The notes beneath the pieces are model-generated. The model worked only from the letters and a program-made list of their open reading frames with translations, was not told the DNA's origin and ran no database searches. A stretch of 64,000 nt of DNA, from contig NZ_VDUY01000002.1 in assembly GCF_008039575.1 (NCBI RefSeq), positions 372,001-436,000 on the forward strand, given 5' to 3'. Positions within the stretch are counted from its first letter, which is position 1, and every line of letters starts with the position of its first letter. The DNA comes from Zeimonas arvi (GTDB lineage: Bacteria; Pseudomonadota; Gammaproteobacteria; Burkholderiales; Burkholderiaceae_E). The position numbers and the translations under genes were made by a program. This document shows positions 9,747 to 12,388 of the stretch, piece after piece.

Positions 9747-10166
9747 ATGCCGAGCCTGAAGGGAACGAAGACCCATCAAAACCTGAAGGATGCGTTCGCC
9801 GGCGAGAGCCAGGCCAACCGCCGTTACCTGTACTTCGCAAACAAGGCCGACGTCGAAGGCCATCCGGAAGTCGCCACGCTCTTCCGCTCGACCGCCGAGG
9901 GCGAGACCGGCCACGCGCACGGCCACCTGGACTATCTGGCCGAAGTGGGCGACCCGGCCACCGACCTGCCGATCGGCTCCTCGGAAGCCAACCTGAAGGC
10001 CGCCGTCGCCGGCGAGACCCACGAGTACACCGACATGTACCCGGGCATGGCCAAGACCGCGCGCGACGAAGGCTTCGACGAGATCGCCGACTGGTTCGAG
10101 ACGCTGGCCAAGGCCGAGCGTTCGCACGCGAACAAGTTCGCCAAGGCCCTCGAAGGCCTGGCCTGA
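9747..10166 (+). CDS. Rubrerythrin without rubredoxin domain
   Basis: Diiron peroxidase of the rubrerythrin family, 139 residues. The four-helix ferritin-like domain carries the ligands Glu20, Glu53 (with His56), Glu90, Glu93, Glu124 and His127, which is the canonical pattern. The C-terminal rubredoxin domain of classical rubrerythrin is absent, so an external electron donor is needed. A strong ribosome-binding site (AAGGAG) lies just upstream of the start. The next gene encodes an Fe-S protein and the one after that a DUF3501 protein; the three occur together in many proteobacteria, and the Fe-S protein is the obvious donor candidate. Function in peroxide or low-oxygen stress is inferred from the family. 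Confidence 0.93.
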
Positions 10167-10231
10167 TCGCCCGTCCGGGGGTGCGTCGCGCGGCCATCGA
10201 CTGCCGCACGGCGCTCTCCGGCCAGCGGACG

Positions 10232-10259
10232 GGGGAGCGCGCGCGCTCCCCTTTTCGTT
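10232..10259 (+). terminator. Rho-independent terminator after the rubrerythrin gene
   Basis: GGGGAGCG and CGCTCCCC form a GC-rich stem with a four-base loop, followed at once by TTTTCGTT. This is a good intrinsic terminator on the plus strand. It suggests the rubrerythrin message mostly ends here, with the Fe-S gene reached by read-through or its own promoter. Confidence 0.75.
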
Positions 10260-10338
10260 CCGGACACGCGGTCCGGGCGCAGGCTCCCGCCGGCGGCACC
10301 GGCCCCATCGAACACCAAGACCTCTGCAGGGAACGACG

Positions 10339-11697
10339 ATGACCGTACGCGAAGGATCGCTCGAAGCCCCCATCCGCCATCCTCTCGACTGGAAGAACCC
10401 CGAGTTCTACGACGAGAAGTCCGCGCTCGACGAGATGGAGCGCGTGTTCGACATCTGCCACGGATGCCGGCGCTGCGTCAGCCTGTGCAACGCGTTCCCC
10501 ACGCTGTTCGACCTGGTCGACGAGTCGTCCACCATGGAGGTCGACGGCGTCGATCGCCAGGACTACTGGAAGGTGGTCGACCAGTGCTACCTGTGCGACG
10601 TCTGCTACATGACCAAGTGCCCGTACGTGCCGCCGCACCCGTGGAACCTGGACTTCCCCCACCTGATGCTGCGCGCCAAGGCGATCCAGTTCCGGCAAGG
10701 CACGCCCACCCGGTTCCGCGACACGCAGCTCTCCTCGACCGACCGCAACGGCACGCTGGCCGGCATCCCGGTGGTGGTCAAGGCGGTCAACGCGCTGGCG
10801 AAGAACAAGACCGTGCGCAACGTGGTCGAGAAGCAGCTCGGCGTTCACCACAAGGCCTGGCTGCCGGAGTTCACCAGCGAGAAATTCCGCGCCTACGCCG
10901 CGCCGTCCAAGGGCTACCCGGTGCGCGACGGCGAGCGCACCCCTGGCAAGGTCGCGATCTATGCGACCTGCTACATCAACTACAACGATCCCGGCATCGG
11001 CCACGACCTGATCAAGGTGCTCGACCACAACGAGATCCCGCACGTGCTGGCCGAGAAGGAGGCCTGCTGCGGCATGCCCAAGCTCGAGCTCGGCGACCTC
11101 GATTCGGTCGCGGCGCTCAAGGAAAAGAACATTCCGGCGCTGGCGAAGCTGGCCCGCGAGGGCTACGCGATCCTCGCGCCCATTCCCTCCTGCGCGCTGA
11201 TGTTCAAGCAGGAGCTGCCGCTGATGTTCCCGGACGACGCGGACGTTCAGGCAGTCCGGGAAGCGATGTACGACCCTTTCGAGTACTTCGTGGCCCGCGC
11301 GAAGGACGGCCTGCTGAAGACCGACTTCAAGACCGCGCTGGGCAAGGTCTCGTACCACATCGCCTGCCACCTGAGGGTGCAGAACGTGGGCCAGAAGACC
11401 CGCGAGATGCTGCAGATGGTGCCGGACACGAACGTCAACACCATCGAACGCTGCTCGGGCCACGCCGGCACCTGGGGGGTGAAGAAGGAGTTCCACGAGG
11501 TCGCGATGAAGATCGGCCGGCCGGTGTTCCGGCAGATGGGCGAGCATCCCGGCGGCGGCGAGCCCGACTGGATCGCGTCGGACTGCCAGCTCGCCGGCCA
11601 CCATATCGAGCAGGGGATGACCGAGGCCGGCCGCACTGTCGACGGCAAGCTGGCCCACCCCATCACCTTGCTCAGAATGGCCTACGGCCTGGCTTGA
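10339..11697 (+). CDS. HdrD/GlpC-like Fe-S oxidoreductase
   Basis: Iron-sulfur protein of 452 residues related to heterodisulfide reductase subunit D and the glycolate oxidase Fe-S subunit. Two [4Fe-4S] motifs are at Cys40/43/46/50 and Cys83/86/89/94. The C-terminal half has two CCG-type domains. The first ends in ACCGMP (Cys243-244); the second has ACHLRVQN (Cys343) and CSGHAG (Cys372), where the usual CC is reduced to CS. There is no FAD or membrane segment, so it is a soluble electron carrier. Its position between rubrerythrin and a DUF3501 gene suggests it delivers electrons to rubrerythrin, but the true partner is unknown. Confidence 0.9.
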
Positions 11698-11712
11698 CGA
11701 AACCAGCTTGGC

Positions 11713-11789
11713 CGGGCCGGGGGCTGGGGCCCCGCCCGACCAAGCGAGTATCGGGGAGCGACTCGGGCGGGGCCCCAGCCCCCGGCCTG
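11713..11789. repeat. Perfect 24-bp inverted repeat between Fe-S and DUF3501 genes
   Basis: The arms at 11716-11739 and 11763-11786 are exact reverse complements, all G/C-rich, separated by 23 bp. Pairing can extend at 11715/11787 and, across a G-T wobble, 11713/11789. No T-tract follows. The hairpin fills almost the whole 106-bp gap, ending about 17 bp before the DUF3501 start. It may be an mRNA-processing or stability element, an attenuator or a REP-like sequence. Confidence 0.85.
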
Positions 11790-11803
11790 CACAGGATTCA
11801 CCA

Positions 11804-12388
11804 ATGCCGAAGGTAACCAGAGACTCGCTGATGACGCTCGAGGCCTACGCCAAGGCCCGGCCCGAGTTCCGCAAGAAGGTCATCGCGCACAAGAAGCACC
11901 GCGCGGTCCGCCTGGGCCCGCACCTCACGCTGCTGTTCGAGGACGAGCTCACCATCCGCTACCAGATCCAGGAGATGCTGCGGATCGAGAAGATCTTCGA
12001 GGAAGAAGGCATCCAGCACGAGCTCGAGGCCTACAACCCGCTGATCCCGGACGGCCGCAACTTCAAGGCCACGATGCTGATCGAGTACGAGGACGCCGAC
12101 GTGCGCAAGCGCGAGCTCGCGAAACTGATCGGCATCGAGGACAAGGTCTGGGTGCAGGTCGAGGGTTCGCCGAAGGTCTACGCGATCGCCGACGAGGACC
12201 TCGAGCGCGAGAACGACGAGAAGACCTCGTCGGTGCACTTCATGCGCTTCGAGCTCACCGAGGACATGGCCGCCGCGCTCAAGTACGGCGTGCCGCTGTC
12301 GATCGGCGTGGATCACCCGAACTACAAGGCCGCGCAGGAACCGGTGCCCGCCGAGATCCGCGCAGCCCTGGTCGCCGACCTGGCCTGA
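11804..12388 (+). CDS. DUF3501 family protein
   Basis: Conserved protein of 194 residues matching the DUF3501 family: RDSLMTLEAYAKARPEFRK, ELTIRYQIQEMLRIEKIFEE and LEAYNPLIPDGRNFKATMLIEY are its typical blocks. It is rich in acidic residues and predicted soluble, with no cysteine cluster or membrane segment. The function is not known. The gene is regularly found behind rubrerythrin and the HdrD-like Fe-S gene, so a role in the same redox module is likely. The start was set at the ATG where homology begins (MPKVTRDSL); the frame is open further upstream only across the inverted repeat. Confidence 0.9.
   Translation: MPKVTRDSLMTLEAYAKARPEFRKKVIAHKKHRAVRLGPHLTLLFEDELTIRYQIQEMLRIEKIFEEEGIQHELEAYNPLIPDGRNFKATMLIEYEDADVRKRELAKLIGIEDKVWVQVEGSPKVYAIADEDLERENDEKTSSVHFMRFELTEDMAAALKYGVPLSIGVDHPNYKAAQEPVPAEIRAALVADLA

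Follow-up and report, generated by a model that had tools for sequence, protein, structure and literature searches.

Three consecutive genes on the forward strand of the window (the whole 64,000-nucleotide stretch of DNA that was analysed) encode the known aerobic-type rubrerythrin system RBR-RFO-DUF3501, and its best explanation, which is judged probable, is that the Fe-S protein RFO would pass electrons to the rubrerythrin RBR for the reduction of peroxide, with the DUF3501 protein as a partner of RFO. The row of genes noticed in an earlier sequence-only reading was confirmed: all three lie on the + strand within 9747-12388 and encode an aerobic-type rubrerythrin of 139 amino acids (RBR, 9747-10166), a GlpC-like Fe-S protein of 452 amino acids with matches in Pfam and NCBIfam (RFO, 10339-11697) and a DUF3501 protein of 194 amino acids (11804-12388). 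As called mechanically, the open reading frame of the third gene begins at 11708; the ATG at 11804 is the predicted start, as indicated by the family match and by relatives. Judged by the DUF3501 protein, the closest named relative among the best 80 of 588 relatives is Quisquiliibacterium transsilvanicum (Burkholderiaceae; 82% over residues 1-182), which makes a betaproteobacterial origin close to that species probable for the window.

Novelty as a new module was ruled out by a published description (PMC5114695). Cardenas, Quatrini and Holmes (2016) named aerobic-type RBR and RFO and tied both to DUF3501, counting the triple in 185 genomes and RBR with DUF3501 only in 25; they described RFO as a COG0247-type protein, noted an RFO-DUF3501 fusion in Nitrosomonas, reported RBR and DUF3501 without RFO in Thermoproteales, and proposed that RFO compensates for the lost rubredoxin domain as a replacement electron route (PMC5114695). 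The window locus has all three proteins side by side, and nothing essential in it differs from the system as set out in that account. According to published work, the module ranges from archaea (an occurrence that rests on PMC5114695 and lies outside the loci sampled here) to the mitochondria of some protists: Andalucia godoyi has a three-component rubrerythrin system made up of the same three families as in the window, but with genes that are not physically linked and with predicted mitochondrial targeting (PMC7050145). The system has also been reported in a hot-spring bacterium and in Sideroxydans with OxyR (PMC7852563), and in Acidihalobacter (PMC7760498).

RBR is a single ferritin-like domain. 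Its Pfam matches are Rubrerythrin (PF02915, E = 3.8e-29) and Ferritin only, and its translation contains no cysteine at all, so it has no rubredoxin domain, as had been claimed from the sequence. Against the NCBIfam model for classical rubrerythrin it scores 133.6, below the cut-off of 200. The closest solved chains are the one-domain rubrerythrins 9onm (E = 6e-72) and 4di0 (E = 7e-72); sulerythrin is matched at E = 9e-56 and the two-domain rubrerythrin 1b71 at E = 1e-27. Residues E20, E53, H56, E90, E93, E124 and H127, which we take to be the di-iron ligands, are invariant in all 90 aligned sequences. Here and below, conservation counts (90 sequences for RBR, 90 for RFO and 96 for DUF3501) include the window sequence and leave out relatives with less than 90% query coverage (one RBR, four RFO and one DUF3501). 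A one-domain-looking rubrerythrin with 53% identity to RBR is encoded at G247:C4:965230-965622 (L120) by a genome that has neither a DUF3501 match nor a close match to RFO; it is possibly a module-free sister.

The description of the second protein as having two [4Fe-4S] motifs and two CCG domains was borne out, with the second CCG domain being degenerate and visible through alignment to GlpC. The first [4Fe-4S] motif (10456-10488) comprises C40, C43, C46 and C50, and the second (10585-10620), of the form CX2CX2CX4CP, comprises C83, C86, C89 and C94; both were read from the sequence, where Pfam Fer4_8 scores 21.4 bits, under its cut-off of 27. Pfam recognizes one CCG domain (residues 205-290, E = 1.1e-12), the first (10969-11193), with C211, C243-C244 and C285. 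The second, reduced CCG domain (11365-11586) has C343, C372-S373-G374-H375 and C416. All 15 motif cysteines (four in each ferredoxin-type motif, four in the first CCG domain and three in the second) are invariant in the 90 sequences, as is H375.

The closest curated family to RFO is GlpC, subunit C of the anaerobic glycerol-3-phosphate dehydrogenase, which likewise has two ferredoxin motifs and two CCG domains. GlpC is the best NCBIfam match (E = 1.4e-65), at 221.8 bits against a cut-off of 278, and for a second NCBIfam GlpC cut-off the score is 160.8 against 279.9, whereas six GlpC comparators all score over both. In their second ferredoxin motif, all six have CX2CX2CX3C where RFO has CX2CX2CX4C, and in their second CCG domain they keep CCG and CxxC where RFO has C-S/A-G-H and the single C416; the position of H375 is isoleucine in the comparators. 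Position 373 carries serine in 80 of the 90 RFO sequences and alanine in the other 10; at position 419, where GlpC has the second CxxC cysteine, 83 sequences carry alanine and seven carry glycine. Judged from these alignments, the changed second CCG domain, with two of five cysteines lost relative to GlpC and one histidine gained, is a feature of the family. Serine 373 was considered as a cluster ligand and ruled out, because with alanine there in 10 of 90 sequences there is no conserved ligand at that position. The sequence-only reading had noted CS in place of CC, which is right for C372-S373 and incomplete, since the later CxxC has likewise lost its second cysteine (A419). Its suggestion of a differing cofactor in that domain is made likelier by the loss of two cysteines throughout the family, which also means that the change is no peculiarity of this protein; we infer that the cluster of the second CCG domain differs.

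The same reading had called the protein HdrD-like, for which GlpC-like is the better term even at a score below the GlpC cut-off. The HdrB and HdrD proteins of heterodisulfide reductase have the CCG-domain fold in common with RFO (Foldseek matches 8rwn_B, E = 1.2e-4, and 5odc_B, E = 3.8e-4). In HdrB and HdrD, a five-cysteine CCG motif binds a noncubane cluster; in RFO neither CCG domain has the complete set of five, the first containing four cysteines and the second three.

The third protein is a DUF3501 protein as proposed, matching PF12007 at 262.8 bits against a cut-off of 25 (E = 2.5e-78). By sequence, the family includes one solved protein, 3fjv of Burkholderia pseudomallei (E = 8.1e-71, VIA-align Z 27.5), which was deposited without an assigned function and whose chain B has 16 residues fewer than its chain A. 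No clear relative of known function emerged: the best VIA-align match after 3fjv, the copper protein CrdA (Z 7.2), was rejected because values in this range may reflect merely a common arrangement. The predicted structure of the window protein, built with an alignment of 69 DUF3501 sequences (a subset of those collected), has a mean pLDDT of 94 and is weakest in the block of residues 131-140 (pLDDT 63), which contains D132, R135 and K140. In residues 131-146 (12194-12241), D132, R135, K140, V144 and F146 are invariant in all 96 sequences. According to the model the 131-140 loop is probably mobile, and that it is nevertheless invariant suggests the binding of a partner.

A survey of co-occurrence and gene order, which had been put forward together with the sequence-only reading, gave a positive result. 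In a sample of 299 genomes from one phylum, DUF3501, RFO (E no higher than 2.5e-105; next match 8.6e-39) and RBR (identity of at least 76%; next match 53%) were each found in 17, and the three lists consist of the identical 17 genomes. This is not chance-level co-occurrence: the odds of one such pairwise coincidence are about 10^-27 if genomes are taken as independent, which related genomes are not. Apart from the window, all 16 sampled loci have the order RBR-RFO-DUF3501 on one strand; with 80 named loci added to these 16, the full order is seen in 88 of 96, and the RBR and RFO matches are 63 to 449 bases apart. The named loci are the top 80 of 588 relatives and therefore close ones; most are titled Betaproteobacteria or Gammaproteobacteria. 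Of the eight loci without the full order, five are cut off by a contig edge on the upstream side; in the other three (L036, L090 and L091), the missing gene lies at another place in the genome. In the genome of L036 (G299:C1), RFO is split into 491779-492618 and 1197846-1198313, about 705 kb apart, with the first 280 residues near RBR and the last 160 by DUF3501, which is a rearrangement or an assembly error. The genomes of L090 and L091 (G300 and G301) have RBR-DUF3501 pairs with no RFO between them and RFO elsewhere, in G300 adjoining a second RBR.

A physical partnership of RFO and DUF3501 is hinted at by natural single frames. The two genes share an uninterrupted reading frame in 21 of the 81 genomes from a single family of the order, these 21 all belonging to the same genus, and in three named loci titled Nitrosomonas as well. 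Across 23 single frames the junction consists of 23 to 33 varied residues and always includes an internal ATG (23 of 23), preceded by a ribosome-site-like run in six; because this ATG is kept throughout, separate translation of RFO and DUF3501 is possible. A model of a natural fusion, built with an alignment of 23 fusions and 46 RFO sequences (a subset of those collected), showed an unordered linker and no interface, its pTM of 0.66 being about what is expected from the larger part alone by the author's estimate. In a Foldseek comparison, the RFO part of this model lay near a LutA model, EtfD and HdrB.

In the favoured explanation, RBR would reduce hydrogen peroxide, and probably organic peroxides too, at its di-iron site and, lacking a rubredoxin domain, would be re-reduced by RFO. 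RFO would be a soluble electron-transfer protein built around the pair of ferredoxin-type [4Fe-4S] motifs and the two CCG domains, with the last, three-cysteine site as a plausible electron exit point, and DUF3501 may be its docking or cluster-shielding subunit. A more specific version, to which only a slim chance is given, would place a site-differentiated Fe-S cluster on C343, C372 and C416, with H375 or a residue of the DUF3501 loop (D132, R135 or K140) as its fourth ligand or cap; the site would serve both for docking and for electron exit toward the di-iron peroxidase, and DUF3501 would be a gate against oxygen. The family-wide three-cysteine and histidine site of RFO, the invariant, low-confidence loop of DUF3501 and the natural single frames of the two genes offer more specific targets for work on the mechanism.

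Peroxidase activity and peroxide induction have been demonstrated by others for relatives of these proteins. Ferriperoxin of Hydrogenobacter thermophilus, which like RBR is a one-domain rubrerythrin without a rubredoxin domain, reduces hydrogen peroxide and organic hydroperoxides in vitro with NADPH and ferredoxin:NADPH oxidoreductase (FNR), and disruption of its gene abolishes aerobic growth (PMC3317640); unlike in the window, the RFO gene of this organism lies apart from the ferriperoxin gene (PMC5114695). In Sulfolobus solfataricus, a glpC-like COG0247 gene by the RBR gene was up 5.2-fold after exposure to hydrogen peroxide (SSO2643 in the table of PMC2739297, the text of which names the glpC gene as SSO2645), and RBR itself (SSO2642) was reported as up-regulated on the microarray, while of its protein spots one increased and two decreased (PMC2739297). 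The ferriperoxin and Sulfolobus data support peroxide defence, and neither tests RFO as donor; in the open-licence PMC papers searched, no experiment was found that addresses electron donation by RFO directly or the role of DUF3501. The chain first read from the sequence, in which the Fe-S protein supplies electrons for peroxide detoxification, is the leading idea on the strength of the co-occurrence, the single gene order and the Sulfolobus induction; it was published in 2016, and we still infer it. Two observations weigh against regarding it as demonstrated: FNR can serve ferriperoxin in vitro, so donors other than RFO are possible, and RBR and DUF3501 are described from Thermoproteales that lack RFO (PMC5114695).

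General donors such as FNR with ferredoxin, or rubredoxin, might reduce RBR, with RFO and DUF3501 working alongside, for instance by linking a dehydrogenase or flavoprotein to a different electron acceptor during oxidative stress. Besides ferriperoxin and the RBR-DUF3501 pairs of Thermoproteales, this would fit the presence of rubredoxin in 12 of the 17 module genomes (the window's included), the rubredoxin reductase gene that adjoins the module in one Gallionella locus, and the resemblance of the RFO part of the fusion model to EtfD and the LutA model, electron carriers of other pathways. It is nonetheless considered unlikely: RFO strictly co-occurs with this RBR in the 299-genome sample, and five of the 17 module genomes show no rubredoxin, which is therefore not obligatory for the module. 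Rubredoxin may serve RBR where it is present.

A role in iron handling, with RBR mainly a ferroxidase or iron buffer and with RFO and DUF3501 releasing or reducing the iron, would be in keeping with the EncFtn-like gene found between RFO and DUF3501 in some loci and with the binding of manganese, cobalt and iron by a Burkholderia RBR (PMC12585693). The EncFtn-like gene is present in only five of 96 loci, however, and relatives show peroxide induction and peroxidase activity (PMC2739297, PMC3317640), which makes this role very unlikely. It is more improbable still that RFO-DUF3501 is the electron subunit of a GlpC-like dehydrogenase of unknown substrate that RBR would protect: among curated families GlpC does match RFO best, but the six GlpC comparators stand far above the cut-offs that RFO falls below, and no dehydrogenase was among the recurrent neighbours listed (top ORF clusters, 96 loci).

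Among the same neighbours, no conserved fourth redox gene was seen. A secreted-looking protein, presumably CNP1-like, is encoded in 35 of the 96 loci, often directly downstream, and a relative of cyclopropane-fatty-acid synthase in 11; the remaining recurrent neighbours are, we assume, housekeeping genes. The five loci with the EncFtn-like gene are L019, L055, L057, L063 and L074; the gene matches PF22277 in L063 (E = 4.2e-43), the other four match the L063 gene at 72-90% identity, and no match to an encapsulin shell gene (PF04454) was found in the five genomes, four of which are of unstated completeness. In the Gallionella locus (L063:2717-8684), the module is accompanied by a divergent LysR-type regulator, another rubrerythrin-like gene and the rubredoxin reductase (PF18113), which hints at redox supply.

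The gap between RFO and DUF3501 in the window contains a perfect inverted repeat with arms of 27 bases (11713-11739 and 11763-11789), and folding of this stretch in isolation yields -80 kcal/mol. A search with 23 bases of the arm, allowing up to three mismatches, showed no other copy in the genome of the window. Only 22 bases separate the RFO and DUF3501 matches in the nearest relative (L034), and foldable gaps of different sequence are found between the two genes in a few other loci.
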